NCBI RefSeq assembly: GCF_021732705.1
Contig: NZ_JAKFUM010000019.1
Location: 1-64,000, forward strand
Direction: 5' to 3'
Length of the DNA: 64,000 nucleotides
Origin: Nevskia sp.
Lineage (GTDB): Bacteria; Pseudomonadota; Gammaproteobacteria; Nevskiales; Nevskiaceae
Shown: positions 35,400 through 60,179 of the stretch, piece after piece
How positions within the stretch are numbered: the stretch's first letter is position 1
Layout of the letters: each line of letters opens with the position of its first letter
The notes under the pieces: generated by a model
The model's database searches: none
The model's input: the letters and a program-made list of their open reading frames with translations, nothing else
What the model was told of the DNA's origin: nothing
Translations under genes and position numbers: made by a program

Positions 35400-36427
35400 C
35401 CGAAGCGCAGGGCCGGCAACGTCGTCACCCAGTCGGTTCCCGCCGTGCGCCGGCGGCGGCCATCGTCCTGCTGTGCGCAGCGAGCCTGCCCGGCTGCGGC
35501 GGCGGTCCGCAGACGGCAGCGGGTTCGCCGGTGCCGCCCATCTCGAACGGCCCGCCGCCGACACCATTACCGGGTCCATCGCCTGCGCCGGCACCCGTCC
35601 CGGGCCCAGCACCGGGGCCGGGGCCGGGGCCGTCACCTCCGCCGACACCGCCGCCAGCGCCACCACCGCGGCTCGCGGTGATCGGCACCACGGCCGATGG
35701 CTACAACGAAGTGCGCTGCGCGGATCTCGTCGCCGTGCGGCCGATCGTGTTCCTCGCGTTCGGCCAGTCGATCGCCTCGAACGCAAACGAGCGAGCGTAC
35801 AGACCAACTCACGCTGCCTACACCATTGATCGAGGACGCTGCTACGAGGCACGCGATCCGATGCTGGGAGCCGACGGTCTAGGGGGCAGCATGTGGTCGT
35901 TCCTGGCCGATGCCTTGCCGGTCGACGCGATGCCGTACACGGCCTTCGTCACGATCGGCGTGGGCGGCAGCAGCATCGCCCAGTGGGATGTCGGCGGCAG
36001 CCTCAACCCGCGCCTGACGTCAGCCGTGCAGGCGACGCGCAACGCCGGCTTTGAGTTCTCGTACGTCCTGTGGCATCAGGGCTCTGCCGACCGCGGCAGC
36101 ACCGTGGAGGCTTATCAGACGCGGTTTCGCAGCATGATCCGATCGGTTGCCCCGTACGGCCTGCTGCCCGGCAGCGCGCCGGGCCAGACCAAGGTGCTGA
36201 TCGCCGTCCACACCCGCTGCGGCAGCGAGCAGGACATGACGCTGGCGATGGCGCAGCGTGGCCTCGTCGATCCGCCGAACGGCTTTTTCGCCGGAGCGGA
36301 TACCGACACCCTGGGCCCCAGTGTCCGCTTCGACGGCTGCCATCTCGCCACCAGTGGCCAGATGATGGCGGCCGATCTGTGGCGCCAGCGGATCGAGAGC
36401 GCGGCGGCGTATCCGTCGCCGCGCTGA
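35396..36427 (+). CDS. Lipoprotein with SGNH/sialate O-acetylesterase-like domain
   Basis: 343 residues. The N-terminus has a lipobox-like hydrophobic segment ending in LPGCGGG, then a Pro/Gly-rich linker of about 45 residues. The SGNH hydrolase domain follows: FLAFGQSIASN near 115 (nucleophile Ser), GVGGSSIAQWDVGG near 185, WHQGSADRGS near 220, and FDGCHLATSGQ near 320, which carries the acid and base residues. This matches carbohydrate O-acetylesterases of the sialate type. It probably trims or adds acyl groups on the same glycan; direction is unknown. Confidence 0.75.
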   Translation: MTEAQGRQRRHPVGSRRAPAAAIVLLCAASLPGCGGGPQTAAGSPVPPISNGPPPTPLPGPSPAPAPVPGPAPGPGPGPSPPPTPPPAPPPRLAVIGTTADGYNEVRCADLVAVRPIVFLAFGQSIASNANERAYRPTHAAYTIDRGRCYEARDPMLGADGLGGSMWSFLADALPVDAMPYTAFVTIGVGGSSIAQWDVGGSLNPRLTSAVQATRNAGFEFSYVLWHQGSADRGSTVEAYQTRFRSMIRSVAPYGLLPGSAPGQTKVLIAVHTRCGSEQDMTLAMAQRGLVDPPNGFFAGADTDTLGPSVRFDGCHLATSGQMMAADLWRQRIESAAAYPSPR

Positions 36428-36493
36428 TCGCCGATCACGAGCGACAAGGCGGTTCCGCCCGGTCGGAGCGGCCCGCCTCGCATCGAGGCCAAG

Positions 36494-36521
36494 CGTCGGG
36501 ACGCCGAGCGGCGTCCCGACG
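36494..36521. terminator. Perfect hairpin between convergent genes
   Basis: A perfect 12-base-pair stem (CGTCGGGACGCC with its complement) surrounds a GAGC loop between the convergent esterase and S46 peptidase genes. There is no T-run on either side, so it is a weak terminator or an mRNA 3'-end stabiliser. Confidence 0.5.
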
Positions 36522-36530
36522 GTGCGTGCT

Positions 36531-38603
36531 TCAGCGCTTCTGCGCGCCGCGCAGTTCCTTCAGCACGCGCTCGGCGCCGTACACCTTGTCGAGTGCTTCC
36601 AGCAGGATGCCGCTGTGCACGGCCACCGTGCGATTGTTGCGTTCGTCGAACCAGTAGGCTCCGCCCAGCGAGCGGATGTTGCCGTCGAACACCAGACCGA
36701 CGATTTCGCCGTTGCGGTTGATCATCGGCGACCCGGAATTGCCGCCGATGATGTCGTTGGTGCTGACGAAGTTGAAGCGCTGGGTCGGGCTCAACTTGTC
36801 CTTCGCTGCCAGCCAGCTGTCCGCCAGCTTGAACGGCTCGTAGCCGGTGTGATGCGCGAACGCGCCGGCGACATCGGTGAACGGCGCGACCGGCTTGCCC
36901 TTCTCGGTCCAGCCCTGAACTTCGCCGTACGACAGGCGCAGCGTGAACGTGGCATCCGGATAGGTGCCGGTGCCGTCCTTGGCGAAGGCCGCAGCCGAAA
37001 TCTTCTCGGCATTCTTCGCAGTGACGGCATCAACCTCGCTCTCGTAACGCTTGCGCAAGGCCCGCGCTGCCGGATCGATCGCGGCGACCAACTGGATGAA
37101 CGGATCGGAGGACTGGGCGATCGCGTCGGCACCGCCGGCCCACAGCGCCTTGCGCACGGCGACATCGCCGAGCTTCGTGTCGCGCACCAGCCGCTCGGCG
37201 AGCTGCTCGGGTGATTCCTTGGCGAACAACTGGCGCACATTCGGGTCATCGGTACCCAGATATTCGCGAAGCTTGGTCAACGACCAGGCGAGCTTGGTGC
37301 GCTCGTAGTCCGGGGTGATCGGCGCGGTCGAGAACAGGCGCTGTTCGGCTGCCGGCAGCGCCGATTCGGTGAACTCGCGCAGACGGTCGCCATTCGGCTT
37401 CGCGCGTTCCGCCGCGCCCCGCACCAGCGCGCGGGCGATGCCGAAATAGTCGGACTGGAAGCCGGTTCCGAGTTCGATCATCCGGTGCGGCCAGTAGATG
37501 TTGCGCAGCACGGTTTCGGCCTTGGCGATCTCGTCCCAGGCATTCGCGGTGTCGGCAGCCAGCTTCGGATCCTTCGACACGTAGTCGCGCAGAGCCGTTT
37601 CCTGCCGACGCTTGAAGGCGAACACTTCCGGATCCTGCAACGCTTCCAGCTGACCCTTGCGCGCCTTGATCGAGTTTTCGACGCCGAACAGATCGCTTTG
37701 CGCCACCCGCGCCTGCTCGCTGCCCTGCGATCGGTACTGGGTCAGCAGCCCGCGCAGCTCCGAACTCAGGAACAGCCGCTGCGGCTGCGCCAGATCGCGC
37801 TGGGTCTCGAGCTGGGCAATCGTCAGCAGACGCTGGGTCGTACCCGGATGACCGACCGTCATCACCAGTTCACCTGCCTCGGCGCCGTTCGCGCTGAACG
37901 GCAGGAAATCCTTGACCTTGGCCGGCTTGCCGTCCTCGTAGGCGCGCAGCAGGCCGAGATCGAGGTCGTAACGCGGAAAATTGAAGTTGTCCGGGTCGCC
38001 ACCGAAGAAGGCCATGGCCAGTTCCGGGGCAAACACGAGACGCACATCCTGATAGCGCCGGTACTTGTACAGGTGGTACTGGCCACCGTGATACAGGTCG
38101 ACGATGTCGCAGCGCGTCGTCGCCTTGTCCTTGCCGACGCACTCGGCTTCCAGACGCGACTGCTCGGCCTTCTGCGCCTTCGAATAGGCCTCGCCGTCGA
38201 GCCCGGCAGTCGCCTTGCGGACGTTGGCGGTGACGTCCTTGATCTCGTCGAGCCGGTTCAGCTCGATCTCCGGGCAGCGCTGCTCGTCCGCCGGCTGCCT
38301 GGCATTGAAGCCCTTCTTGATGTAGTCGCTGCTCGCGCTCGACAGCTGCTGGATGCAGGCGTTGACACAGTGATGGTTGGTCATCACCAGCCCATCGGGC
38401 GACACGAACGAGCCCGAGCAACCGCCGGCGAGTCGGACCGCGGACTTCTGCACATGTGTCACCCAGGCCGGCGTCGGCGAAAAGCCGTAGCGCGCCTGCA
38501 TCTGCTTGATCGGCAGGTTGTCCATCGTCCACATGCCTTCCGCAGCCTGCGCAGTGCCGGCCGCCAGCAACAGCGCGGCGGCCACTCCTCTTATGTTGTA
38601 CAT
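36531..38603 (-). CDS. Family S46 serine peptidase (dipeptidyl-peptidase 7/11 type)
   Basis: 690 residues from ATG 38603 with a signal peptide ending in AQAAEG. S46 enzymes are periplasmic peptidases that release dipeptides. The triad is visible: His in VMTNHHCVNAC near 71, Asp in FFGGDPDNFNFPRYDLD near 203, and Ser in IIGGNSGSPMINRNG near 625. At the specificity position after FDGNIRSLGG the residue appears to be Gly, as in DPP7 (hydrophobic P1), and not Arg as in DPP11; the alignment is by eye. S46 peptidases are frequent in Xanthomonadales and Bacteroidetes. The upstream 661 bases separate it from xoxF. Confidence 0.92.
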   Translation of the reverse strand: MYNIRGVAAALLLAAGTAQAAEGMWTMDNLPIKQMQARYGFSPTPAWVTHVQKSAVRLAGGCSGSFVSPDGLVMTNHHCVNACIQQLSSASSDYIKKGFNARQPADEQRCPEIELNRLDEIKDVTANVRKATAGLDGEAYSKAQKAEQSRLEAECVGKDKATTRCDIVDLYHGGQYHLYKYRRYQDVRLVFAPELAMAFFGGDPDNFNFPRYDLDLGLLRAYEDGKPAKVKDFLPFSANGAEAGELVMTVGHPGTTQRLLTIAQLETQRDLAQPQRLFLSSELRGLLTQYRSQGSEQARVAQSDLFGVENSIKARKGQLEALQDPEVFAFKRRQETALRDYVSKDPKLAADTANAWDEIAKAETVLRNIYWPHRMIELGTGFQSDYFGIARALVRGAAERAKPNGDRLREFTESALPAAEQRLFSTAPITPDYERTKLAWSLTKLREYLGTDDPNVRQLFAKESPEQLAERLVRDTKLGDVAVRKALWAGGADAIAQSSDPFIQLVAAIDPAARALRKRYESEVDAVTAKNAEKISAAAFAKDGTGTYPDATFTLRLSYGEVQGWTEKGKPVAPFTDVAGAFAHHTGYEPFKLADSWLAAKDKLSPTQRFNFVSTNDIIGGNSGSPMINRNGEIVGLVFDGNIRSLGGAYWFDERNNRTVAVHSGILLEALDKVYGAERVLKELRGAQKR

Positions 38604-38963
38604 GCGATCCCCGTCATGAATGGAAAGCCCCGGCGCGATCGACGGCGGGCCGGATCGGCTCCGGTACCTCGGTCGTCGGCCGGGGCCGATGACGGAATAT
38701 TGCACGGCCTCGCGGCAATTCGGCAGCAATCGGCGCACAACGGCCGGAAAACGCCAGTTTTGGCGCCCTGCAAGGCGCGTCCAGCGTGCCGATGACAGCA
38801 GAATCCGCGATTCGGTGGCGGGATCGGCAGGCACGTCGGCGTCGGCTTGAACCCGGTCCGCAGCTGGCCCAGGTGTCAGCCTTCCGTCGCTTGAACGCCG
38901 CCGTCTGGAGCCATCGGAAACAGGTGGGTCAAAACTGCGCCAGCCCCGTCAATATCAACATTT

Positions 38964-38985
38964 AATTGTGCAATTGCAGCAATTG
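38964..38985. promoter_or_regulatory. Candidate upstream activator site for the sigma-54 regulator
   Basis: CAATTGC-A-GCAATTG at 38971-38985 is a perfect inverted repeat around a single base. It partly overlaps AATTG-TG-CAATT at 38964-38975. It lies about 65-80 bases upstream of the -24 element, a normal distance for an NtrC-class enhancer. The match to this activator is positional. Confidence 0.5.
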
Positions 38986-39047
38986 AATCCGGGGCAACAG
39001 CACTGATTTTGTTGATGTTTATGCGATTCCGGGAATCTTGCCCGGAG

Positions 39048-39063
39048 TGGCACGGCTGTTGCT
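39048..39063 (+). promoter_or_regulatory. Sigma-54 (RpoN) -24/-12 promoter of xoxF
   Basis: TGGCACG-N4-TTGCT matches the RpoN consensus fully with the required spacing. Transcription would start near 39074. The AcoR-like activator downstream in the island is the expected partner. Confidence 0.85.
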
Positions 39064-39264
39064 GACAAGCCTGCGGGTTCGGTTATTGACGGCAACACGG
39101 CGAAGCGGTTGGTCGCGGAGTCGATTCAAGCTGCACCATTCCGCGGGTCGGGTCATCGGCACGCGGAGTCAGAAGAAAGATGCGCCGGATGCGATATCGC
39201 CATGCGTTCCGAGTGTAATCGAACAGCTACAACCGTAATTTCCTAAATGCGGAGGAGAAACAAG

Positions 39265-41070
39265 ATGAATTTACGCTACAAGGCTGGCATCACCATGGCG
39301 GCGTTTGCCCTCGTCGCAGCGCCCGGCGTTCACGCCGACGCCGCGCTCGACAAGGCACTTGCCAATTCGGGCAACTGGGCAGCGCAGGCTGGCGATGAAT
39401 ACAACCAGCGCTACAGCAAGCTGAGCCAGATCACCGACAAGAACGTCAACAAGTTGCAGGTGGCGTGGACCTTCTCGACCGGCGTGCTGCGCGGCCACGA
39501 AGGCTCGCCGCTCGTCATCGACGGCGTCATGTACATCCACTCGCCTTTCCCGAACAAGGTGTTCGCGGTCGATCTGGATACGCAGAAGATTCTCTGGAAG
39601 TACGAGCCGAAGCAGGACCCGGCCGTGATTCCGCAGATGTGCTGCGACACCGTCAACCGTGGCCTCGCTTTCGGCGACGGCAAGATCCTGCTGCAGCAGG
39701 CTGACACCAACCTCATCGCGCTCGACGCCAAGACCGGCAAGCTGGTCTGGAGCGTCAAGAATGGTGATCCGAAGCTCGGCGCCGTCAACTCGAACGCCCC
39801 GCACGTGTTCAAGGACAAGGTCGTCACCGGCATTTCCGGCGGCGAGTGGGGCGTTCGCGGCTTCCTCGCGGCCTACAATCTGAAGGACGGCACGCTGGCC
39901 TGGAAGGGCTACAGCGTCGGTCCGGATGCCGAAATGCTGATCGAGCCGGGCAAGACCACGACCTGGGAAGATGGCAAGGTCACGCCGGTCAAGAAGGACT
40001 CCTCGCTGTCGACCTGGAAGGGCGACCAGTGGAAGATCGGCGGTGGCACGACCTGGGGCTGGTACAGCTACGATCGCGCGCTGAACCAGGTGTTCTACGG
40101 CACCGGCAACCCGTCGACCTGGAACCCGTCGCAGCGTCCGGGCGACAACAAGTGGTCGATGTCGATCTGGTCGCGTGACCTGGATACCGGCAAGGTTAAG
40201 TGGGTCTATCAGATGACGCCGTTCGACGAGTGGGATTTCGACGGCATCAACGAAATGATCCTTGCCGACATCAACGTCAAGGGCAAGCCGACCAAGGCGC
40301 TCGTGCATTTCGATCGCAATGGTTTCGGCTACACGCTGGACCGTACCAACGGCGCGCTGCTCGTCGCCGAGAAGTATGACCCGGCCGTGAACTGGGCCAC
40401 GCACGTCGACATGAAGACGGGCCGTCCGCAGGTCGTCGCCAAGTACTCCACCGCGCAGAACGGTCCGGACGTCAACACCAAGGGCATCTGCCCGGCGGCG
40501 TTGGGTTCGAAGGACCAGCAGCCGGCGGCGTTCAACCCGAAGACCGGCCTGTTCTACATCCCGACGAACCACGTCTGCATGGACTATGAGCCGTTCGCCG
40601 TCGACTACACCGCCGGTCAGCCGTATGTCGGCGCGACCCTCGCGATGTACCCGGCCCCGAACAGCCATGGCGGCATGGGCAACTTCACGGTGTGGGATGC
40701 TGGCGCGGGCAAGATCGTCTGGTCGAAGCCGGAGAAGTTCTCGGTCTGGTCGGGCGCGCTGACCACGGCGGGCGACGTGCTGTTCTACGGCACGCTGGAA
40801 GGCTACCTGAAGGCTGTCAGCCTGAAGGATGGCAAGGAGCTTTGGAAGTTCAAGACTCCGTCCGGCATCATCGGCAACGTGTTCAGCTACATGCACAAGG
40901 GCAAGCAGTATGTCGGCGTGTACTCGGGCATCGGCGGCTGGGCCGGCATCGGCATGGCGGCTGGCCTCGAGAAGGACTCCGATGGTCTGGGCGCGGTCGG
41001 CGGCTACAAGGACCTCGCTTCGTACACGGAACTGGGCGGCTCGCTGACGGTGTTCGCGCTGAGCGAATAA
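39265..41070 (+). CDS. xoxF: XoxF-type PQQ-dependent methanol/alcohol dehydrogenase
   Basis: 601 residues from ATG 39265, with a GGAGGAG ribosome site and a signal peptide ending in VHAD. This periplasmic quinoprotein oxidises methanol (or a small alcohol) to aldehyde and passes electrons to cytochrome c. The adjacent Cys pair C126-C127 (QMCCDTV), Glu194 in SGGEWGVRG and W-motif repeats of the eight-bladed propeller are present. The catalytic region reads EWD324-F325-D326; the extra Asp two residues after the catalytic Asp marks the lanthanide-binding XoxF group, whereas calcium-type MxaF has Ala. It has no fused cytochrome domain. The exact substrate cannot be told, but the neighbours favour methanol. 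Confidence 0.9.
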
Positions 41071-41115
41071 GGTTCGCGCTCGCAAGAGCCGACTCGTAGC
41101 AGCTGTTCGCTGGAT

Positions 41116-41154
41116 GTGGCACCACTGACGCAAGTTGGTGGTGCCACTTTTTTT
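41116..41154 (+). terminator. Intrinsic terminator of xoxF
   Basis: Ten perfect pairs (GTGGCACCAC with its complement at 41138-41147) are followed by seven T. xoxF is therefore a monocistronic unit, although the rest of the island lies downstream. Confidence 0.93.
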
Positions 41155-41349
41155 GGCCGCAGGCCTGGGCACAGCGCCCTGCCCTGCCGCCGGGTCGTCG
41201 ACGATGCCGCGTTGTGCGGCACGCCGCAGAAGCGCGACGATCGCTGCTTTCTCTTGAATCCTTGCCGTGTCGCGCCACGCGATGCGGCGGCCGTGCCGAA
41301 TGGATGGCATGGCATTCCCCGAATTCATCGTCCTTGACTGGTCCTTCCG

Positions 41350-42441
41350 ATGCCTGATCCTGACGCATCCCCGCTCGTGCGCCGCGCGGCAGCGCTGGCC
41401 GCCACGATCACGCTTGCCGCGGCCCTGCTGTGTCCGCTGCTGCCGACGCGCGCCTCGGAAATAGACCGGGAGCTGTTCAATCCGATCATCGGCAGCATCG
41501 TCAAGGTCGAGGTCACGACCGAATCCGGCGCCTATTCCCTCGGCAGCGCGCTGTCGGTCGCGCCGGGAATCTTCGCGACCAGTTGCCACGTCACCGCGCA
41601 GGCGGCATCGATCACGATGATCTATCAGGGCCTGCGCTGGCGCGCGACGCGACAGCGGGCCAACACCGAGCGCGACCTGTGCCTGCTGCGCGTGCCGGGG
41701 CTCGACGATGTCCAGCCGCTCGCACGGCGCAGCTCACGCGATCTGCATGTGGAAGACGATGTCGCCGCGCTCGGCTACACCTTCGGCCAGGGCCTGTCGG
41801 TGCAGGGCGGCACCGTTCGCTCACTGCATGCCGTGGCGGGCGGCGTGGTGATCCAGAGCGCCACATACTTCAACTCCGGCGCCAGTGGCGGCGGCCTGTT
41901 CACGCTCGACGGGCGACTGGCCGGCATCCTGACCTTCCGGCTGAAGGGCGCGGAGGCCTACTACTTTTCGATCCCGGCAGACTGGATCGACGAGGAACTC
42001 GCGCGCAGCGACGCGTTCCTGCCGATCGGCGTGCTCGACGGGCCTCGCCCGTTCTGGGCGCAACCACCGGAAAAGCTTCCGTTTTTCATGCGGGCATCGA
42101 CACTGGAAGCGCGCGGCCTGTGGACGGAACTGGCCGAGCTGACGCGAGACTGGGCCGATGCCGAACCGCGCAGTGCCGAGCCCTGGTTCATGCGCGGACA
42201 GGCGCTGACACGACTCGATCAGGGCGACGCCGCGCTCGACGCGTATCGTCACGCGATCACGCTGCAACCGGACGATGCTCAGGCCTGGTTCGAACTCGGC
42301 AAGCTGCAGCTGTCACGCGGACAGGCGGACGATGTCCGTCAGACGCTGACGACCCTCGGCAAGCTCGATGTCGAGCTGGCGATGAAGCTGGCATCGTCCG
42401 AACGGTCGGCCGCGAAGCCGACAGTCGAATCCAAGCCCTGA
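41350..42441 (+). CDS. Trypsin-like serine protease with TPR region
   Basis: 363 residues with a signal peptide (AAALAATITLAAALLCPLLPTRAS). The S1-type fold shows His in FATSCHVTAQ near 80, Asp in ERDLCLLRVPG near 115, and Ser in FNSGASGGGLFTLDG near 180. The C-terminal third (about 265-340) has TPR-like helices (AEPWFMRGQALTRLDQGDAAL). No PDZ domain is seen. It may process or fold components of the methanol-oxidising system, but no direct evidence links it. No signal sites other than the signal peptide were identified. Confidence 0.8.
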   Translation: MPDPDASPLVRRAAALAATITLAAALLCPLLPTRASEIDRELFNPIIGSIVKVEVTTESGAYSLGSALSVAPGIFATSCHVTAQAASITMIYQGLRWRATRQRANTERDLCLLRVPGLDDVQPLARRSSRDLHVEDDVAALGYTFGQGLSVQGGTVRSLHAVAGGVVIQSATYFNSGASGGGLFTLDGRLAGILTFRLKGAEAYYFSIPADWIDEELARSDAFLPIGVLDGPRPFWAQPPEKLPFFMRASTLEARGLWTELAELTRDWADAEPRSAEPWFMRGQALTRLDQGDAALDAYRHAITLQPDDAQAWFELGKLQLSRGQADDVRQTLTTLGKLDVELAMKLASSERSAAKPTVESKP

Positions 42442-42521
42442 TGTCTGCCCGCAGGCCTCGGTCAGCGGTCGTGCGGCAACCAGGGATACTGATGAACAAC
42501 AAATGGCTCTGTGGAGGAGCG

Positions 42522-43193
42522 ATGAACAACGTGCTGAAAGGTTTTGCGCTGTCGCTGGCGATGGGTTCCGCAGTGCTGTCGGCGGCGATGGCCGGTGACG
42601 AGATCTCCGTGGCCGAGAAGCGCATCTTTCTCGATGACCATCTGAAGTCAATCGCGAAGGCGGCGCAGATCGAGTACGACTATCAGCAGAGCGGCAAGCC
42701 CGATCAGACCTTCGCGGACAAGGTGAAAGTGATCATCGGCGCTGGCGCCAAGACCGAGCGCAAGATCTCGGTCGATTACCTGAGCGGCCCGAACAAGGTG
42801 GAATTGCCGACGATCGAAGGCGGCACCGCCAATCCGGTGATCCTGTACTTCCTCGAGAAGGACATCCGCGACATGCACGGCATCCTCGGCGGACAGCAGG
42901 CCTACTTCCGCAAGCGCATTCGCCTCGCATTGGCCGAATCGGCGAAAGTCACGCCGGTGACGGTGACCTACCGCGGCAAGCCGGTCTCCGCGAACGAAAT
43001 CCGCATCGAACCGTATGCCAATGATCCGCTGAAGGATCGTTTCGGCGTCTACACGCGTAAGGTCTATGTCTTCACGGTGTCGGATGCCGTGCCCGGCGGC
43101 GTCTACGAACTGCATACCGACGTGCCGACGACCACGCCGCCGGCGACGCCGGTGCTGAAGACGGCGCTGAAGCTTCACGACGCGCCAGCTTGA
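42522..43193 (+). CDS. Periplasmic protein of unknown function in the xoxF island
   Basis: 223 residues from ATG 42522, chosen because GGAGGAG precedes it; ATG 42492 is an alternative. A signal peptide ends at AMAGDE. The mature part is probably beta-rich (KVKVIIGAGAKTERKISVDYL, VYVFTVSDAVPGGVYELHT) with no cysteine and no recognised catalytic motif. I recall similar proteins near quinoprotein genes but cannot name a family. It may be a chaperone or a redox-partner-associated factor; that is only context. A terminator follows. Confidence 0.6.
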   Translation: MNNVLKGFALSLAMGSAVLSAAMAGDEISVAEKRIFLDDHLKSIAKAAQIEYDYQQSGKPDQTFADKVKVIIGAGAKTERKISVDYLSGPNKVELPTIEGGTANPVILYFLEKDIRDMHGILGGQQAYFRKRIRLALAESAKVTPVTVTYRGKPVSANEIRIEPYANDPLKDRFGVYTRKVYVFTVSDAVPGGVYELHTDVPTTTPPATPVLKTALKLHDAPA

Positions 43194-43215
43194 TCGCGAC
43201 ACCTCGCCCCGGAAC

Positions 43216-43248
43216 GCGCCTGCCTGCATCGTTGCGGCAGGCGCTTTT
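43216..43248 (+). terminator. Intrinsic terminator
   Basis: GCGCCTGCC pairs with GGCAGGCGC (43236-43244) across an 11-base loop and is followed by four T. It ends the unit containing the unknown periplasmic gene. Confidence 0.8.
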
Positions 43249-44136
43249 CGCCGAGCGTCATCCGGCAACGCGATGGGCGAACCTGGCCCGGCAACCGCAA
43301 CGGCGCCATTGACGCCGCCGCGTTGAAGCGGCTGTTGCGGAGCTTCCGCGCTGAATCCGGCGGGCCACACTGGTGGGTCAGGATCGAAACACCACCGCGG
43401 CAGCGCCCGGGCCGGGCCTTCAGATGCAGCGCCAAATCATTGTTTTTGAAACGGTAGTTTTGGTTCTCGTGCTGGCACGCGAACTGCGTTGACGGTTGCG
43501 CCGCGCGCCTCCCTGCGCGGATGTCAACGACTGACGAGCGCGCCCCGTGACCGCTTTCGACCGCCAACCCGCACGCGTGATCCCACTGCCGATGCTGCAG
43601 CGGCATCGATGTGATCGGGTGCATGCCGGCATCGGGGCGCGACCGTGAGGCGCGGTCGCCGGCGGTCCACGCCGCGCCTGCCGCAAGCGACGCTCGAGAG
43701 GCTGCGCGAGCGTGCCCCCGCCGCACCTGATCTGGAAGCGGATGACGATGCGCCGGGTCTGTCGGCATCAGGCATGGCGCCCTCAAGCGCCCCCCAAGAC
43801 GACGAGCGAGGCGACGGTCGCGACCGCGTTCATCCGCCGAGCAGCAGCCTCAGTTCGGCTTACTGGCTGGCCGTTCCGGAAGACCCTCATGACCCGTCGG
43901 AGCGACCCGAATCGGGCGTTCTGATACAGCGTTTTTCTGCAGCTTCCGTCAATAAACCGGCACACGGAAACCGATTGTTGTATGGCACTGACGACGGCGT
44001 TAGTCTTCCGACGTTTGGTGCTGCCCTGCCCACGATATCGCGTGCGGATGGCACTGAACGCACATGCATGGCGGGTGAACGCCATGACGATAATGACCTC
44101 GCGCCCACGGGCTCGATGGCGCGGCAGGAGGAAAGC
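43249..44136. other. Upstream region of the sigma-54 activator gene
   Basis: About 890 bases. A sigma-54-like site lies at 43473. The reading frame of the activator stays open from 43645, but the residues encoded before 44137 have no domain and a low-complexity, Pro/Arg/Ser-rich composition, so I treat them as untranslated or leader. The stretch 43920-44050 is AT-richer than the surroundings. No other gene was recognised. Confidence 0.5.
43473..43487 (+). promoter_or_regulatory. Candidate second sigma-54 promoter
   Basis: TGGCACG-N4-CTGC matches the RpoN consensus except for C in place of T at the start of the -12 box. It points towards the activator gene and may give autoregulation. Transcription would begin near 43498, a long way (about 640 bases) from the chosen start. 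Confidence 0.5.
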
Positions 44137-46200
44137 ATGTTGACCACGCAGAAAGCGGCGCGTCATGCATCGTTGGTCGAGTCTGCGGTGCAGGGCTTGG
44201 AGCCTGCCGCGAGCATTGACCATCTGGTGCGTGATTCCTGGACCCGTTGCATCCAGCACTATGCGCTCGACCCGCAGAGCCCGAAAAAGGCGACCGTCGT
44301 CGATCGACCTGAGCTGCAGGCGCGGCGCGATCAGCATGGCCTGTTGCTGTCGATCGCGCGGATGGAACTGCTCGGCCTGCGACAGCGGCTCGGGCAGAAC
44401 GATTTCGGCATCATGCTGACCGACTCGGATGGCGTGATCCTGCATTACGTCGGCGATCCCGGCTTTGCGACCACGGCACGTCGCAGCGGGCTGCGCGAAG
44501 GCGCCGTCTGGAGCGAGCGTGAGCTCGGCACCAACGGCATGGGAACCTGCATCGTCGAGCAGCGCTCGGTGGTGATTCATCAGCACGAACACTTTCTGGC
44601 GCAGAACACCGAGCTGACCTGCTCGGCAGCGCCGATCTTCGACCAGCAGGGCCGCGTCGTCGCCGCACTCGACATCTCCGGCAGCTTCAGCCGTGCGCAG
44701 ACGCACACGCTGGCGCTGGTCGAGATCGCCGCCCAGAACATCGAGAACCGCGCGCTGCTGGAAAGCTGCAAGCGCCACTACCTGCTGCGCTTCCATCGCC
44801 AGCAGGAGTTCATTTCCACGCCGGGCGAAGGCATCGTCGCCTTCGACGACAACGGCATGATCGTCGGTGCCAACCGCAGCGCGCTGGAACTGCTCGGCAT
44901 GCCCGATCACCGCGCGCTGTGCGGACAGGCGCTGGAGTCGGTGTTCGACACCACGCTGTCGACGCAGATGCAGCTGGCCTCGCGCCGCGCCTTCCGCGCC
45001 GCGCCGCTGATGGCACGCGCCAGCCAGACCCGGCTGTGGAGCGCGATCCAGCCGCCGGAGCGTGAGACGCGCAGCGAGCCGGGCCGCCGCGAGCAGATCG
45101 AAGCGCCGCCGGTGTCGACCTGCGGGCCGCTGGCGACGATGGAGTACGGCGATCCGCAGATGGCCAACAACGTGCGGATCGTCCGCCGCGTCATCGACCG
45201 AGACATCCCGGTGCTGCTGCTCGGCGAGACCGGCACCGGCAAGGGCTGTTTCGCCAAGGCGATCCATGCCGCCAGCCGCCGTGCCGACAAGCCGTTCGTG
45301 ACGGTGAACTGCGCGGCGATTCCGGAAACGCTGATTGAATCCGAACTGTTCGGCTACAAGGCCGGCGCGTTCACCGGCGCGACCCGCGAAGGTCATTCCG
45401 GCCGCGTCGTGCAGGCCAATGGCGGCACGCTGTTTCTGGATGAGATCGGCGACATGCCGCTGCCGCTGCAGGTGCGCCTGCTGTCGGTGATCGAGGATCG
45501 CGAAGTGATTCCGCTCGGCGGCTCGAAGGCGATCCCGGTCGACATCCGCATCGTCAGCGCCACCCATTGCGACCTGCTGCAGCAGGTGCGCGAGCGGCGC
45601 TTCCGCGAAGACCTCTACTACCGTCTGAACGGCCTCGCGCTGCGGATGCCGGCGCTGCGCGATCGCCACGATGCGCGCGAGCTGATCCACAACCTGATCC
45701 GCGAGGAATCGCGCGATCGCGGCGGCCTGTTCGACATCGAGGAAGCGGCGATGCGCCGGCTGCTGCAGTCACCGTGGCCGGGCAACATCCGCCAGTTGCG
45801 CAACGTGCTGCGCACGATGATCGCGATGTGCGAGAGCGATTGCCTGACGGTGGCCGATTTCGATGACGAATGGCTGTCCGGCGGCAGCGCCGTGGCGGCT
45901 GCGCCAGCGCCGAACGATGCGATCGAACTCGATCTCGAAGGCGACGACGTGCTCGGCGAAGCCGAACGCGAAGCGCTGCGCCGCGTGCTCGAGTGCTGCC
46001 GCTGGAATGTCAGCGCCGCCGCCGTGCAGCTGCATGTCAGCCGCAAGACGCTGTACCGGAAGATGTTTCGCCATGGCATCACGCGGCGCGAAGGCGTGAT
46101 GGCCGACGCCGTGCAGGGCGGGTCCGAAAGCTCGGCTCGCGACCACGGCAGGACGTCCGCCAGTCGGCCGCGCAGCGCCCGGCCGGTCATGGCCGATTGA
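44137..46200 (+). CDS. Sigma-54-dependent activator, AcoR family
   Basis: 687 residues from ATG 44137, preceded by AGGAGGAAAG. Domain order: N-terminal DSWTRCIQHYALDP region (about 30), a GAF domain (about 80-210), a PAS-like segment (FISTPGEGIVAFDDNGMIVGANR near 225), an AAA+ domain (about 340-570) and a Fis-type helix-turn-helix (WNVSAAAVQLHVSRKTLYRKM near 622). Walker A is GETGTGKG at 363-370 (Gly where Glu is usual at the end), the sigma-54 contact GAFTGA is at 410-415 and Walker B is GGTLFLDEIGDM. It probably activates the RpoN promoter of xoxF in response to an alcohol or aldehyde; this is inference. Confidence 0.9.
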   Translation: MLTTQKAARHASLVESAVQGLEPAASIDHLVRDSWTRCIQHYALDPQSPKKATVVDRPELQARRDQHGLLLSIARMELLGLRQRLGQNDFGIMLTDSDGVILHYVGDPGFATTARRSGLREGAVWSERELGTNGMGTCIVEQRSVVIHQHEHFLAQNTELTCSAAPIFDQQGRVVAALDISGSFSRAQTHTLALVEIAAQNIENRALLESCKRHYLLRFHRQQEFISTPGEGIVAFDDNGMIVGANRSALELLGMPDHRALCGQALESVFDTTLSTQMQLASRRAFRAAPLMARASQTRLWSAIQPPERETRSEPGRREQIEAPPVSTCGPLATMEYGDPQMANNVRIVRRVIDRDIPVLLLGETGTGKGCFAKAIHAASRRADKPFVTVNCAAIPETLIESELFGYKAGAFTGATREGHSGRVVQANGGTLFLDEIGDMPLPLQVRLLSVIEDREVIPLGGSKAIPVDIRIVSATHCDLLQQVRERRFREDLYYRLNGLALRMPALRDRHDARELIHNLIREESRDRGGLFDIEEAAMRRLLQSPWPGNIRQLRNVLRTMIAMCESDCLTVADFDDEWLSGGSAVAAAPAPNDAIELDLEGDDVLGEAEREALRRVLECCRWNVSAAAVQLHVSRKTLYRKMFRHGITRREGVMADAVQGGSESSARDHGRTSASRPRSARPVMAD

Positions 46201-46464
46201 GCATTCGATGCACGCCGCGATGAGGCCCTTGAACCCGCGGCAGTACCGCTGCGCGGGCAGCGGCTGATTCGCGGGAAACCGTCACCACAACACCAGGACG
46301 CAGTCGGCAGCGCTCCTGCTCCGCGCACCGGTTCGAGATCGCGGCATCCATCGAACCGCGCCCGGCGTCGAAGCCCGATCGTGCCCTGACAGCAGTTCCG
46401 GCAGTACCGAACCATCGGGGCTTGACCCCAACCCCACAAAGCACAACAGAACAGGAGCAAGACC

Positions 46465-47574
46465 ATGGATGTACGCGCCGCCGTTGCCTTCGAAGCCGGC
46501 AAGCCGTTGTCGATCGAAACCGTGCAGCTTGATGGCCCGCGCGCCGGCGAAGTGCTGGTCGAGGTCAAGGCCACCGGCCTTTGCCACACCGATAAATTCA
46601 CGCTGTCCGGCGACGATCCGGAAGGCATGTTCCCGGTGATCCTCGGCCACGAGGGGGCCGGCATCGTCGTCGACGTCGGTGCCGGCGTCACCAGCGTCAA
46701 GAAGGGTGACCACGTGATCCCGCTGTACACGCCGGAATGCCGCGAGTGCGACTACTGCCTGTCCGGCAAGACCAATCTCTGCCAGCGCATCCGCGCCACC
46801 CAGGGCCGTGGCCTGATGCCCGACGGCAGCAGCCGCTTCAGCTTCCAGGGCAAGCCGGTGCTGCACTACATGGGCTGCTCGACGTTCGCCAACTACACGG
46901 TGCTGCCGGAAATCGCCGTCGCCAAGGTTCGCGAAGACGCCCCGTTCGACAAGATCTGCTACATCGGCTGCGGCGTCACCACCGGCATCGGCGCGGTGCT
47001 GTTCACGGCCAAGGTCGAGTACGGCACCAACTGCGTGGTGTTCGGCTTGGGGGGCATCGGCCTGAACGTCATCCAGGGCCTGAAGATGGTCGGTGCCAAC
47101 ATGATCGTCGGCATCGACATCAACCCGGGCCGCGAAGCCATGGCCCGCAAGTTCGGCATGACCCACTTCGTCAACCCGAAAGAAGTCCAGGGCGATCTCG
47201 TCGCCCATCTGGTCGAGCTGACCAAGGGCGGTGCCGATCACACGTTCGAATGCACCGGCAACGTCAAGCTGATGCGCCAGGCGCTGGAGTGCTGCCACAA
47301 GGGCTGGGGCATGTCGACGATCATCGGCGTGGCGCCGGCCGGTGCGGAAATCTCCACCCGTCCGTTCCAGCTGGTCACCGGCCGTCGCTGGATCGGCTCC
47401 GCCTTCGGTGGTGCGAAGGGCCGTACCGACGTGCCGCGCATCGTCGACTGGTACATGGATGGCAAGCTGAACATCGACGACCTGATCACGCACACGATGC
47501 CGCTGGAAAAGATCAACGACGGCTTCGACCTGATGGCGCGCGGTGAATCGATCCGCGGCGTGGTGCTCTACTGA
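46465..47574 (+). CDS. adhC: S-(hydroxymethyl)glutathione dehydrogenase (class III ADH)
   Basis: 369 residues. It oxidises S-hydroxymethylglutathione (formaldehyde plus glutathione) to S-formylglutathione with NAD. Zinc ligands are visible: Cys in GLCHTDKFTLSGDDPEG near 40, His in ILGHEGAGIV near 62, the structural four-Cys set CRECDYCLSGKTNLC near 92-106, and Cys in YIGCGVTTGIGAVL near 168. The Rossmann motif is FGLGGIGLNVIQG near 193. The gene overlaps fghA by TGATG, so the two steps are coupled. It handles the formaldehyde made by XoxF. The name frmA is equivalent. Confidence 0.97.
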   Translation: MDVRAAVAFEAGKPLSIETVQLDGPRAGEVLVEVKATGLCHTDKFTLSGDDPEGMFPVILGHEGAGIVVDVGAGVTSVKKGDHVIPLYTPECRECDYCLSGKTNLCQRIRATQGRGLMPDGSSRFSFQGKPVLHYMGCSTFANYTVLPEIAVAKVREDAPFDKICYIGCGVTTGIGAVLFTAKVEYGTNCVVFGLGGIGLNVIQGLKMVGANMIVGIDINPGREAMARKFGMTHFVNPKEVQGDLVAHLVELTKGGADHTFECTGNVKLMRQALECCHKGWGMSTIIGVAPAGAEISTRPFQLVTGRRWIGSAFGGAKGRTDVPRIVDWYMDGKLNIDDLITHTMPLEKINDGFDLMARGESIRGVVLY

Positions 47575-48425
47575 TGTCGGGAGCACTCGAAAAGCGCAGC
47601 GACCAGGCCTGCTTCGGCGGCCGCATGGGCTTCTACACCCATGCCTCGAAGGAGACCGGCACGCCGATGAAGTTCGGCGTCTACCTGCCGCCGCAGGCTG
47701 CGCATCGCAAGGTGCCGGCGCTGTACTACCTCGCCGGCCTGACCTGCACCGAAGAAACCTTCCTGATCAAGGCCGGCGCGCAACGCGTGGCGGCCGAACT
47801 CGGCATCGCGCTGATCGCCTGCGACACCAGCCCGCGCGGCCTGAACCTGCCCGGTGAAGCCGACAGCTGGGATTTCGGGCTCGCGGCCGGTTTCTATCTG
47901 GACGCCACGCAGGACCCGTGGAGGACGAACTACCGCATGGGTTCGTACATCAACGAGGAACTGCCGGCGCTGATCGAGGCGAACTTCCCGGTGATCGCGG
48001 GCAAGCGCGGCATCTTCGGTCACTCGATGGGCGGTCACGGCGCGCTGGTGACGGCGCTGCGCAATCCGACGCGCTGGCATTCGGTGTCGGCCTTCGCGCC
48101 GATCTCGAATCCGGTCGCGGTGCCGTGGGGCAAGAAGGCGTTCGGAAACTATCTGGGCTCCGACGAGTCCACATGGGAGCAGTACGACGCGAGCCTGCTG
48201 ATCAGGAAAAATCCCTATCCGGGGCTGCTGTTGGTCGATCAAGGACTGGCGGACAATTTCCTGAACCGGGAACTGAAGCCGGAAGCGCTGGATGTCGCGG
48301 CGCGAGCGTCGGGTCAGCGATTGACCCTGCGCCTGCATGCCGATTACGACCATTCGTACTGGTTCATTCAGACCTTCGTCGCGGACCACCTCGTGCATCA
48401 CGCGAGCACGCTCGGCGCGGTTTGA
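47574..48425 (+). CDS. fghA: S-formylglutathione hydrolase
   Basis: 283 residues, alpha/beta hydrolase of the esterase D family. It splits S-formylglutathione into formate and glutathione. LYYLAGLTCTEETFLIKAGAQR is near 48, the nucleophile Ser lies in IFGHSMGGHGALVTAL near 147, the Asp in LLLVDQGLADNF near 223 and the His in DHSYWFIQTF near 258. It follows adhC by a TGATG overlap. Confidence 0.96.
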   Translation: MSGALEKRSDQACFGGRMGFYTHASKETGTPMKFGVYLPPQAAHRKVPALYYLAGLTCTEETFLIKAGAQRVAAELGIALIACDTSPRGLNLPGEADSWDFGLAAGFYLDATQDPWRTNYRMGSYINEELPALIEANFPVIAGKRGIFGHSMGGHGALVTALRNPTRWHSVSAFAPISNPVAVPWGKKAFGNYLGSDESTWEQYDASLLIRKNPYPGLLLVDQGLADNFLNRELKPEALDVAARASGQRLTLRLHADYDHSYWFIQTFVADHLVHHASTLGAV

Positions 48426-48601
48426 CGCAGCATCGAAGACGTCGTCCGGCACGGACGCGACAAGAGCCGTTGACGCGGCACGCGACACCGTTCATGCGGT
48501 GCGCGTGCCCGTACTGCGGCCGCACTGCGAGAAGTTAAGGTCAGGTTCAGCGCCTGCAGCGCATACCGGCTACGCATCACTACTATCTGGAGGGTTTCAA
48601 C

Positions 48602-49006
48602 ATGCAGCACCGTTTTCTGATGTCACTGTGCACCGCCGCGGCACTCGCCGGAGGCTTTTCGATGAGCGCCTCAGCCGAAGACGCGCCGCTCTACACCGTC
48701 GTCGAGGGATCGCAGGTCGATGCCAAGACCTATGGCGGATTCAAGGCCTGGCGCGCCGCCAACTGTGCGCAGTGCCACGGCGCGAATCAGGAAGGCGCCG
48801 TCGGTCCGGCACTGACCGAATCGCTCAAGGTGATGACCAAGGCCGAGTTCGTCACCACGATCACCGAGGGCCGCCTCGCCAAGGGCATGCCGAACTGGAG
48901 CGCGAACCCGACCGTGATGAACAACATGGACGGCCTGTACGCCTATCTGAAGGGCCGCTCGGAAGGCAAGATCACGATCGCCCGCGTCACCCAGATTCCG
49001 CAGTAA
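48602..49006 (+). CDS. c-type cytochrome (XoxG/PedF-like)
   Basis: 134 residues with a signal peptide ending near SASAED. The single haem site is C55-A-Q-C-H59, and the axial Met is M96 in KGMPNW. The size and the extended FKAWRAANCAQCHGANQEG sequence resemble the small cytochrome c-550 of PQQ alcohol dehydrogenases (PedF type); XoxG of classical methylotrophs is usually larger. It should accept electrons from XoxF in the periplasm. It lies 176 bases downstream of fghA and upstream of xoxJ. Confidence 0.88.
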   Translation: MQHRFLMSLCTAAALAGGFSMSASAEDAPLYTVVEGSQVDAKTYGGFKAWRAANCAQCHGANQEGAVGPALTESLKVMTKAEFVTTITEGRLAKGMPNWSANPTVMNNMDGLYAYLKGRSEGKITIARVTQIPQ

Positions 49007-49018
49007 GGGCGTTCCACG

Positions 49019-49052
49019 GCCGTCTCGATCGATCGCCAAACGTCGAGACGGC
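49019..49052 (+). terminator. Hairpin after the cytochrome gene
   Basis: GCCGTCTCGA pairs perfectly with TCGAGACGGC across a 14-base loop. No T-run follows directly, so it is a candidate attenuator or mRNA stabiliser rather than a strong terminator. Confidence 0.5.
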
Positions 49053-49220
49053 TGTCTGCCGCAGCCGTTTTCGTGGTTCGCATCGACCTCGAGGCGATGC
49101 CACGAACAACGGCACCGAGTTGCAGGCAGGCTTCAACGATCGTGCCCTCGATGGCATGACGCATACATCATCAGGTCTGCCATCCGGCAGGCCCGTGGGT
49201 CGGAAGAGCACGGAACGTCG

Positions 49221-50171
49221 ATGAATACTCAGGTTTCTGGCGGCCATGCCGCCGTGATCGCATTCGCAGCGCCATCCTCGCGTCGCAGCCTGCTGCGGCT
49301 GTACTGGCTGATCGCGCTGCTGGCGATGGTCTTGGCATCCGCCGTTCACGCCGAGACATCGCCGGGGGCCGACGAGCCGCGCAAGGCGCTGCGCATCTGC
49401 CGTGATCCGAACAACCTGCCGTTCCAGAACGCGAAAGGCGAAGGCTTCGAGGACAAGATCGCGCAGTTGTTCGCCGACGAGCTGAAGCTGCCGCTGCAGG
49501 CCTACGACTACCCCGCCCGCTTCAATTTCGTGCGCAACACGCTGCGCTTCAAGCTGCCCGGTGACGACTATCCCTGCGATCTGATCATGGATCTGCCGGT
49601 CGGCTTCGGCGGCGGGGTCAATGTCACCAGCCCGTATTACCGTTCGACCTTCGCAATGGTGTTCTCGAAGTCGAAGTCGCTGGCCGGCATCACCAGCATC
49701 GAGCAGTTCCTGGCCTTGCCGCAGGAGAAGCTGGCGAAGCTCAAGATCGGCGTCATCGACAAGTCGCCGGCGGCTGACTGGCTGGCCAAGCGCGGCCTGA
49801 TCGATCTCGGTGTGCCCTATCAGGCGCTGGTGGCCGATCCGGAGAAGAACTCCGGCCAGATCATCGAGCAGGACCTGATCGCCGGAAAGATCGATGCCGT
49901 GATCATCTGGGGCCCGATCGCCGGCTACTACGCGCGGCGCTACCCGGACGCGCAGCTGCTGGTGCTGCCGATGCAGTCCGAGAAGAACGTCAAGTTCGAC
50001 TTCGAGATCGCGATGGGCGTGCGCTATGGCGAGAAAGCCTGGAAGCAGACCATCGAAGACCTGATCGCGAAGAACCAGTCGAAGATCGATGCCATCCTCA
50101 CCGAGTACGGCGTGCCGCTGGTCGCAGCGCCCGCGGGCGGCGACGCCAGCAGCCCGGGCGAGCGCAAGTAA
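49221..50171 (+). CDS. xoxJ: XoxJ/MxaJ-like periplasmic binding protein
   Basis: 316 residues with an N-terminal signal (LLRLYWLIALLAMVLASAVHAE). The mature protein has the solute-binding fold of family 3: LRICRDPNNLPFQNAKGEGF near 60, DLIMDLPVGF near 115, and IIWGPIAGYYAR near 230. This matches the quinoprotein-dehydrogenase-associated substrate-binding family (MxaJ/XoxJ). XoxJ is thought to help load or activate XoxF. It follows the cytochrome gene, the usual xoxF-G-J grouping, although xoxF itself is 8 kb upstream. Confidence 0.9.
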   Translation: MNTQVSGGHAAVIAFAAPSSRRSLLRLYWLIALLAMVLASAVHAETSPGADEPRKALRICRDPNNLPFQNAKGEGFEDKIAQLFADELKLPLQAYDYPARFNFVRNTLRFKLPGDDYPCDLIMDLPVGFGGGVNVTSPYYRSTFAMVFSKSKSLAGITSIEQFLALPQEKLAKLKIGVIDKSPAADWLAKRGLIDLGVPYQALVADPEKNSGQIIEQDLIAGKIDAVIIWGPIAGYYARRYPDAQLLVLPMQSEKNVKFDFEIAMGVRYGEKAWKQTIEDLIAKNQSKIDAILTEYGVPLVAAPAGGDASSPGERK

Positions 50172-50282
50172 CGGCGCGTTCCACGGCATCCAGAGCGCTT
50201 CATCCCGGTGCTGCAGCGACTGATCCGTGTCGCACGTCCAGTACCGACCCGAATCCAGTTTCCCTATCGAGAGATCGCCTCC

Positions 50283-50660
50283 ATGCACGCATCCACCATC
50301 CGCGCGGCGCTGATCACTGCCGCTGCAGTTGCCGCCACGGCCCTGATCTCCGGCCCTGCCGCCGCGGCCAGCACCTACGACTACCCGACCGTCGACCGGA
50401 TCGAATATGTCCACATGTGTCAGCGCGAGCACGCCGACAAGCCGGCGCAGGAAATGCTCTACAAGTGCTCCTGCATCATCGACAAGATTGCCAACGAGCT
50501 GAACTACGAGGATTACGTCGAGGCGTCGACGGCGTTCTACGCGTCGTCGATTGCCGGCGAGCGCGGTCAGGTCATCCGCAACGAGCGTGTCGCCAAGAGC
50601 CTCGCCGATCAGTTCAAGGAAGCGCTCGGCAAGTCGAAGAAAGCCTGCTTCGTGAACTGA
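50283..50660 (+). CDS. Small Cys-containing periplasmic protein, unknown
   Basis: 125 residues from ATG 50283; an upstream in-frame start lacks a signal. A signal peptide ends near AAAAST. The mature part has four cysteines (HMCQREH, YKCSCIID, and KACFVN at the very end) and is otherwise helical and charged (KIANELNYEDYVEAS). The Cys pattern suggests disulfides or metal binding. It sits between xoxJ and the metallohydrolase in the same orientation and is a candidate member of the quinoprotein relay system. No family was recognised. Confidence 0.65.
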   Translation: MHASTIRAALITAAAVAATALISGPAAAASTYDYPTVDRIEYVHMCQREHADKPAQEMLYKCSCIIDKIANELNYEDYVEASTAFYASSIAGERGQVIRNERVAKSLADQFKEALGKSKKACFVN

Positions 50661-50667
50661 CACGCCG

Positions 50668-51603
50668 ATGACCATGGCCAGCCGCGCGCTCATCGTCATG
50701 ATGACCTGCGTGCTGGCGGGTCTGCCGGCCCACGCGGCCGGGCGCTTCGCGCTCGAGCAAGCCGCCGACGGCATCCATGTGCATCGTGGCCAGCAGGCTG
50801 AAAGCAGCCCTGAAAACGGCGGCGACATCGCCAACATCGGCTTCATCGTCGGCAAGCGCTGCACTGCGGTGATCGATACCGGCGGCACGGCGGCCATCGG
50901 CCGGGACTTGTTGATGGCAATCCGCCAGACCAGCCGACTGCCGATCTGCTACGTGATCAACACGCACGTTCATCCCGATCACGCGTTCGGTGACTCGGCG
51001 TTCAAGGACAGCGGCGCGGAGTTCGTGGCACATGCGAGCTTTCCCGCGGCCCTGGCGGCGCGGCGCGGCGCCTACCAGAGCCGTCTCGCACAGACCGTGG
51101 GCGATGTCGCCGACGGCAGCGACATCGTGGTACCGAGCCGCGTCGTCGCGGCCGATGACACGCTGCAGCTCGACCTCGGTGGTCGCACGATTCGTGTCCA
51201 GGCATGGCCGACCGCGCATACCGATCACGACATCACCGTGTTCGACGAACAGACCGCCACGCTGTGGACCGGAGATCTGCTGTTCGTCGACCGGATTCCG
51301 GTGATCGACGGCAAGGTCCTCGGCTGGGTCAAGGTGATCGAGCGGCTGCGCGCGCTGAAACCGGCACATCTGATTCCCGGACATGGACCGATCAACCGTC
51401 CATTCGAAACAGCCTTCGATTCAGAAAAGAATTATTTGAATGACGTTATTACCAAAATGCGCAGTGCAGTCGAAATGGGGCGTACACTGCAAGCGGCCGT
51501 CGACTCCGATTCCGATTCGGACGAGCGCGCGCACTGGATACTGTTCGATGATTACCACCGCCGGAATCTGACGGCGGCCTATACCGAGCTGGAGTGGGAG
51601 TAG
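50668..51603 (+). CDS. Quinoprotein-associated zinc metallohydrolase (MBL fold)
   Basis: 311 residues with a signal peptide ending near HAAGR. The metallo-beta-lactamase core is intact: T-H100-V-H102-P-D104-H105, a further His in TAHTDHD near 187, Asp in WTGDLLFVD near 207 and His in PGHGPI near 238. It matches the SoxH-like 'quinoprotein relay' type found next to PQQ dehydrogenases. The role is inferred from that association: handling a bound thiol/persulfide on the SoxYZ-like carrier. It lies seven bases after the small Cys protein and five before the SoxYZ-like gene. Confidence 0.88.
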   Translation: MTMASRALIVMMTCVLAGLPAHAAGRFALEQAADGIHVHRGQQAESSPENGGDIANIGFIVGKRCTAVIDTGGTAAIGRDLLMAIRQTSRLPICYVINTHVHPDHAFGDSAFKDSGAEFVAHASFPAALAARRGAYQSRLAQTVGDVADGSDIVVPSRVVAADDTLQLDLGGRTIRVQAWPTAHTDHDITVFDEQTATLWTGDLLFVDRIPVIDGKVLGWVKVIERLRALKPAHLIPGHGPINRPFETAFDSEKNYLNDVITKMRSAVEMGRTLQAAVDSDSDSDERAHWILFDDYHRRNLTAAYTELEWE

Positions 51604-51608
51604 AGAAC

Positions 51609-54148: not shown

Positions 54149-56685
<2,537 letters not shown>

Positions 56686-56713
56686 ACCGCCCCTACAGCC
56701 GGAGTCCACGACC

Positions 56714-57148: not shown

Positions 57149-57154
57149 TTTTCC

Positions 57155-57196
57155 GCCGCATCCGTGGCCCGGAGTTGGTCCGGGCCGCGGCTTTTT
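57155..57196 (+). terminator. Hairpin between cbbS and cbbX
   Basis: GGCCCGGA pairs with TCCGGGCC (57179-57186), extended by an outer GCCGC/GCGGC arm, then five T. It can cut transcription after cbbS so that cbbLS is made in excess of the downstream genes, while the readthrough serves cbbX. Confidence 0.75.
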
Positions 57197-57218
57197 ATCG
57201 AGATTGAAGGAGGCTGCC

Positions 57219-58124: not shown

Positions 58125-58135
58125 AGGCCCCTGCC

Positions 58136-59212: not shown

Positions 59213-59276
59213 TACGCCGATAAAACAGCTGCGGCGGCCCGCATCACCCGGGTCGACCGCCACGAGGAGAGCAGCC

Positions 59277-60149: not shown

Positions 60150-60179
60150 CGCGCCCTCGCCTTCGACCCGACCGACACC

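Follow-up and report, generated by a model that had tools for sequence, protein, structure and literature searches.

A conserved predicted sigma-54 promoter before xoxF in Nevskia and a linked GAF-type activator as its probable regulator

How is a lone lanthanide-type methanol dehydrogenase gene controlled in an organism with no apparent second such enzyme to switch to? In the literature that we cite, as far as its accessible parts go, accounts of xoxF control come from methylotrophs that alternate between two methanol dehydrogenases. We analysed a 64,000-nucleotide stretch of a Nevskia sp. contig (hereafter the window), for which an earlier note made from the sequence had proposed that xoxF is transcribed from a sigma-54 promoter under the control of an AcoR-like activator encoded nearby. 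Our analysis makes it probable that an RpoN-dependent promoter, an activator from the same gene island and self-feedback through a second promoter together form the control circuit of xoxF.

The gene in question (39265-41070, + strand) encodes a PQQ methanol dehydrogenase of the lanthanide type that scores above the cut-off of TIGR03075. Among PDB entries, 6dam and 6oc5, both XoxF chains, match its product best, and it carries the extra Asp of XoxF enzymes (WDFDG, versus an Ala in the WDYAG or WDFAG of the MxaF-type chains shown). At E <= 1e-150 there was one match per genome and no second, MxaF-type methanol dehydrogenase in its own genome (96% complete) or in the other eight genomes of the genus that have xoxF, so that the calcium-type partner enzyme of an MxaYB switch is missing at that threshold. 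Downstream lie, in order, genes (+ strand where coordinates are given) for a trypsin-like/TPR protein (41350-42441, Trypsin_2 and TPR domains), a secreted-looking protein, the activator, S-(hydroxymethyl)glutathione dehydrogenase (GSH-FDH; 46465-47574, TIGR02818 above cut-off), S-formylglutathione hydrolase (47574-48425, TIGR02821 above cut-off), a c-type cytochrome that is a candidate XoxG (48602-49006, cytochrome domains over their Pfam cut-offs and TIGR03874 below its cut-off) and a XoxJ-like periplasmic binding protein (49221-50171, TIGR03871 above cut-off); these are followed by a SoxYZ-like carrier and the large subunit of RuBisCO.

The sigma-54 (-24/-12) promoter predicted for xoxF, TGGCACGGCTGTTGCT, occupies 39048-39063 on the + strand, 217 nt before the xoxF ATG at 39265, with a predicted transcription start at about 39074. 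When the window was scanned with the consensus TGGCACGNNNNTTGCW (TGGCACG-N4-TTGCW), this site, TGGCACG-GCTG-TTGCT, had no mismatch, and its GG and GC doublets are separated by ten nucleotides within the full consensus context. Nowhere else in the 4.53 Mb genome does the consensus match exactly, and 24 more places have one mismatch; by our own estimate, which assumes uniform base composition, chance alone would give about one exact match in a genome of this size. The genome contains 25 places with at most one mismatch to the real pattern versus 66 for a reversed control pattern, and the window has 5 sites with at most two mismatches where 13 are expected. Near-consensus sites are thus without genome-wide enrichment, and a single consensus match is on its own weak evidence; we dropped the idea of reading a genome-wide sigma-54 regulon from the consensus because the near-matches are not enriched.

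It is the position and conservation of the site that mark it as more than a chance match. A sigma-54 site is found before xoxF in all nine upstream sequences from the genus, seven of them exact and two with one mismatch, always between -204 and -217. In the alignment of these nine upstreams, 39047-39062 is the most invariant block of 16 columns (15/16 columns, versus a mean of 6.5); other conserved blocks lie inside the leader at 39176-39192 and 39209-39236. A scan of 38835-39280 for promoters of the sigma-70 type gave no match. RpoN itself is encoded by three genes in the genome, all with intact RpoN boxes. These rpoN genes (G000:C1:508863, G000:C8:184290 and G000:C6:148669) are 36-38% identical to one another, and three copies are present in 6/9 genomes of the genus with xoxF versus 0/9 without it, some of the genomes being incomplete.

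The activator gene (44137-46200, + strand) was identified from its domains, its conservation and its aligned motifs. Pfam finds a GAF sensor domain, an AAA+ domain and a Fis-type helix-turn-helix, together with a weak PAS match below cut-off; Walker A and GAFTGA are invariant in 13 aligned activator sequences and the recognition helix (SRKT.YRK..RHG) is nearly so. None of the 25 NCBIfam families listed for it (of 32) reaches its cut-off, and 'AcoR-like' is used here as a label for the architecture only, not for acetoin regulation, the gene being part of a C1 island. Its activation domain (45151-45642) is the only sigma-54 activation domain on the contig of the window; elsewhere in the genome there are ten strong sigma-54 activators. 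The elements on which the earlier note had built, namely the identity of xoxF, the consensus RpoN site at 39048 and a sole sigma-54-class activator at 44137 in the same island, all held up. One of the ten other activators, a second AcoR-like protein with 44% identity (L211, G000:C6:25442-31779), lies beside an open reading frame that by eye reads like an aldehyde dehydrogenase, with a one-mismatch sigma-54 site, TGGCATGGCCGTTGCT, near it.

The activator is linked to xoxF throughout the genus. XoxF is present at 92% identity or more in 9/18 genomes, own genome included, and all nine also have the activator at 84% identity or more. The two genes share a contig in seven of the nine, their starts 4.4-4.9 kb apart; in the remaining two genomes they lie on separate contigs, and the activator gene is close to the end of its contig. 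The stop codons flagged within three activator matches are normal termini past the helix-turn-helix.

A second sigma-54-like site, TGGCACGCGAACTGCG, is located upstream of the activator gene at 43473-43488 (+ strand). It has two mismatches, with CTGC at -12, and its GG and GC are kept in 9/9 activator upstreams, mostly as TGGCACGCGATCTGCA (pattern TGGCA[CT]G....CTGC). About 650 bp of poorly conserved sequence separate it from the activator ATG, and a gene between 43488 and 44137 was rejected, as indels run throughout the alignment and no frame was seen by eye. The conserved putative promoter upstream of the activator gene is new here. Within the same otherwise variable stretch, 43958-44010 is a strongly conserved block, perhaps another promoter or an operator.

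Enhancer-dependent control calls attention to sequences further upstream, where we propose as the activator's enhancer before xoxF the conserved box TGGGTCAAAACTGCGCCA (TGGGTCA...TGCGCCA; 38925-38942, + strand), which starts 123 bp before the sigma-54 site. It is kept in 9/9 aligned upstreams, one of which has TGAGTCA. A related box, TGGGTCAGGATCGAAACA, lies at 43374-43391 (+ strand), such that the second sigma-54-like site begins 99 bp past its start; it is conserved as TG[GA]GTC...GAAACA in 9/9. The left halves of the two boxes agree (TGGGTCA) and the right halves differ (GCGCCA at xoxF, GAAACA at the activator gene). We have taken TGNGTC-N6-GACNCA as the putative site of the activator; the activator-side box has one mismatch to it and the xoxF box two, with 16 places in the window that match it as well or better. 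Hydrocarboniphaga effusa (L095) has an exact match, TGGGTCACATGCGACACA, likewise 123 bp from its sigma-54 site, in two MAGs TGTGTCACATTCGACACG lies at 124-125 bp, and loci from Massilia have TGCGTCACGGATGACACA and similar boxes at 80-114 bp; across Nevskia, H. effusa and the two MAGs the distance stays within 122-125 bp. Among the 19 upstreams that have a sigma-54 site, out of 27 loci scanned, the motif is present with at most one mismatch in 8 (0.1 in shuffles) and with at most two in 13 (1.3 in shuffles), leaving 6 without, counts that lean high, since some of these very sequences served to define the motif and close relatives are numerous among them. The case for the box comes from its conservation, its distance and its repetition at the second promoter; the sequence match alone is modest and not decisive.

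Between this proposed enhancer and the sigma-54 site lies a palindrome-like element, ATTGTGCAATTGCAGCAAT (38965-38983, no strand assigned), which the earlier note had placed at 38964-38985 and offered for footprinting. The element is real, a related form occurring in 9/9 upstreams, and its core has one exact match in the genome. As the activator's enhancer we rejected it, since it was not found before the activator gene or at the other-genus loci scanned; the box at 38925-38942, mostly outside the interval considered earlier, fits better and is the likelier candidate. Two further observations concern such elements. Just after xoxF, an enhancer-like box at 41115-41132, which departs from TGNGTC-N6-GACNCA at one position, overlaps a sigma-54-like site that has two mismatches. 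At five loci of other genomes (L152, L153, L157, L161 and L162), a recurring box, GACTGTCACGAAT, can be read by eye upstream of xoxF, in the interval from the proposed enhancer to the sigma-54 site; it is followed by a C/T-rich stretch and ends near TGAACA.

The earlier note had called such control of xoxF unusual, which understated its breadth, as the predicted arrangement recurs in relatives of Hydrocarboniphaga and in Oxalobacteraceae, with sites there before both xoxF and the GSH-FDH gene. The activator alignment was used to scan for related loci; among the best 80 of 136, tblastn placed a XoxF-type match in 30, and in three of these (L096, L120 and L165) it is cut at the locus edge. Counting TGGCACG-N4-WTGCW with at most one mismatch and GG/GC intact, these 30 loci contain 46 sites, 31 of which are on the same strand as, and no more than 350 bp upstream of, xoxF (16) or the GSH-FDH gene (15); the reversed pattern gave 8 sites, none so placed. 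At least one such placed site is present in 22/30 loci, many of which are close relatives, so that the counts are not independent. Among the eight loci without one, L096 and L120 are incomplete, and in L154, L156 and L162 the sites before xoxF have two mismatches. No sigma-54 site precedes xoxF in L143, L151 or L155; of these, L143 and L155 have both activator and xoxF. In three Pseudoduganella loci (L117, L138 and L145), xoxF and the activator gene are back to back.

The enzymes at these loci are of more than one kind. Those of H. effusa and the two MAGs form another clade, with 45-46% identity, and the circuit would accordingly be found on at least two kinds of XoxF. The best PDB match of the H. 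effusa protein is 7o6z, followed by 4mae, and the lanthanide Asp is present in all 28 aligned rows from XoxF-type loci, L054, L055, L056, L095, L097 and L100 among the loci that carry it. A reading of the Hydrocarboniphaga and Solimonas homologues (45-49%) as ethanol-type dehydrogenases proved wrong, the best matches of the H. effusa protein being methanol dehydrogenases.

A less biased comparison started from an even sample of 369 genomes across the class; XoxF is present in 27 of them at E 1e-220 (30 genes). Accepting sites with at most two mismatches and GG/GC intact within 500 bp upstream, we found one before 5/30 xoxF genes. By genome, a site precedes xoxF in 5/10 with an activator homologue (E 1e-90) versus 0/17 without (one-sided P 0.003), a comparison that counts two sites with two mismatches, one genome (G376) whose activator is on a different contig and another (G182) whose activator match is partial. 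With the Nevskia genome itself left out, the figures are 4/9 versus 0/17 (P ~0.008, calculated by hand). The other five of the ten activator-positive genomes have no site before xoxF.

In a tree of the activators, XoxF-linked rows appear in several places: in Nevskia, in Oxalobacteraceae, in Methylonatrum with one relative, and as single rows. The label requires 9 changes versus 25.6 in shuffles, although it was assigned roughly (L087 and L091, whose xoxF lies on other contigs, received it on the strength of their genus, and for L200 links up to 18 kb were counted) and the deep order is uncertain because of long branches. With nine changes and such branches, we do not claim a single origin of the pairing.

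The mechanism that we consider probable begins with RpoN-polymerase at 39048-39063, which would transcribe xoxF from near 39074. The activator would bind the box at 38925-38942, its GAF domain would sense a C1-pathway signal (an alcohol or aldehyde being the likeliest), and in the signal-bound state it would open the promoter complex using ATP. The same protein would bind 43374-43391 and drive the second RpoN promoter at 43473, which would read through the activator gene into the genes for formaldehyde oxidation and xoxGJ; by driving the promoter of its own gene, the activator would feed back on itself. What can be read from sequence comparison here are the two predicted promoters, the two candidate boxes, the domain set, the conservation and the recurrence elsewhere. 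Enhancer-dependent control of xoxF by a GAF-type activator, as the earlier note had read the locus, gains support from the conserved promoter, the linkage, the box at both promoters and the recurrence, and the local activator appears to be the likeliest regulator.

Three other readings were weighed against this one. The xoxF promoter might depend on sigma-54 but answer to another activator, with the island activator serving only its own operon. The ten further strong activators in the genome, the 44% relative on C6 included, would be at hand for this, the right halves of the two boxes do differ, and the conserved palindrome at 38965-38983 could serve another regulator. However, xoxF and the activator are linked in all nine genomes, if two contig breaks are allowed for, they are back to back in the three Pseudoduganella, and in the class sample the sigma-54 sites depend on the presence of the activator. 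We regard a different activator as unlikely.

We think it still less likely that xoxF is mainly transcribed from another promoter, for instance in the conserved leader or further upstream, so that the sigma-54 site would be minor or reserved for special conditions. This would give a role to the conserved leader blocks (39176-39192 and 39209-39236) and would suit relatives such as L143 and L155, which lack a sigma-54 site before xoxF, but the sigma-54 block is the most conserved of the upstream and the sigma-70-type scan of 38835-39280 was empty. That the site is a chance consensus match is scarcely credible: although about one exact match is expected in a genome of this size and the reversed pattern is the commoner (66 versus 25), conservation in 9/9 largely refutes it, and the site recurs at the same genes in other families.

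The nearest parallel to RpoN-dependent control by the local activator is MmoR, which with RpoN controls soluble methane monooxygenase (PMC5874634). There too a C1-oxidation operon is under a locally encoded sigma-54 activator, which contains a GAF domain in two of the methanotrophs, and has a YTGGCACGrNNNTTGCW promoter; however, the target is methane monooxygenase rather than methanol dehydrogenase, and the accessible part of that paper describes no link to XoxF. BmoR of Thauera butanivorans is likewise a one-component, alcohol-responsive sigma-54 activator that acts through an upstream site on an alkane/alcohol oxidation pathway, although its target is an alkane monooxygenase, its inducers are butanol and similar compounds, and its site lies 193 bp upstream and could be removed without abolishing the response (PMC8899819, in the part available); we liken it to the Nevskia activator by description, not by homology. 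The lanthanide switch that controls xoxF in Methylomicrobium buryatense is of a different kind, with the histidine kinase MxaY and the orphan response regulator MxaB switching between MxaFI and XoxF (PMC5018670, available sections), whereas Nevskia has a putative one-component sigma-54 activator and no MxaF-type second enzyme at E 1e-150. In Pseudomonas putida, PedR1 and PedS2-PedR2 also control PQQ alcohol dehydrogenases of the calcium and lanthanide types (PedE and PedH), but PedS2-PedR2 is a two-component system under a further activator, and no sigma-54 promoter is described for the ped genes in the accessible text (PMC13390443).

We found no report of sigma-54 control of xoxF in the open-access PMC literature, as far as its accessible text extends. 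In Methylosinus sporium, RpoN promoters are named at nitrogen genes (PMC12403871, in the part available); in Thiodiazotropha, xoxF adjoins a SoxYZ fusion and the available text names sigma-54 only at another locus (PMC11237559); Massilia isolates are among the xoxF carriers from a methanol enrichment (PMC5606694, as excerpted); and a review of methylotroph regulation does not contain the word xoxF (PMC10992012). The predicted circuit is therefore a known class of regulator and a known class of promoter in what is, for xoxF, a new pairing. If it is correct, unrelated control circuits have come to govern one and the same lanthanide enzyme, with a logic here that is enhancer-dependent and probably driven by substrate. 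It would provide a named regulator, two promoters, a candidate operator box and possibly a sensor pair responsive to methanol or formaldehyde, and it can be tested in named isolates such as H. effusa, Massilia and Pseudoduganella.

The predicted 5' leader of xoxF (39074-39264, + strand; ~190 nt), aligned in nine genomes, is a candidate for a conserved RNA structure. RNAalifold gives a consensus of 40 pairs, 11 with a compensatory change; 94.4% of the cells pair (87.4% in shuffles) and there are 33 two-sided changes (12.5 in shuffles), a covariation assessed on the same nine related sequences from which the structure was derived. Slid versions of the structure pair 31-43%. In the hairpin of columns 68-77/86-95, 8/9 pairs have changes in both partners; all nine leaders retain the closing helix (columns 4-13/144-153), which hardly varies, and the start of its 5' strand at +4 fits the predicted start at 39074. 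Against the structure, the number of further pair types does not exceed that of the shuffles (240 of 500), and the stability of the single sequence is ordinary (z -0.44). A known RNA family was rejected, with no Rfam match up to E 1 in 36000-52000, and under stricter filters a model of the leader (R1) found only its nine source sequences in 58 genomes of the family; weak matches in L100 and L097 (E 0.1 and 0.97), inside the GSH-FDH match, were taken as chance. The leader may perhaps be a structured regulatory RNA limited to the genus. A two-layer control, in which the sigma-54 activator would act on xoxF and the formaldehyde branch while the leader RNA sensed the state of a cofactor, for instance the supply of lanthanide or PQQ, with the circuit as a distinct regulatory class in different XoxF clades and separate lineages (Nevskia, Hydrocarboniphaga relatives and Oxalobacteraceae), is speculative and we hold it to be rather doubtful.

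At the far end of the island, 54149-62946 contains the gene for the RuBisCO large subunit and then open reading frames that read by eye as other Calvin-cycle genes; their place after the methanol genes suggests autotrophic growth on methanol-derived CO2.
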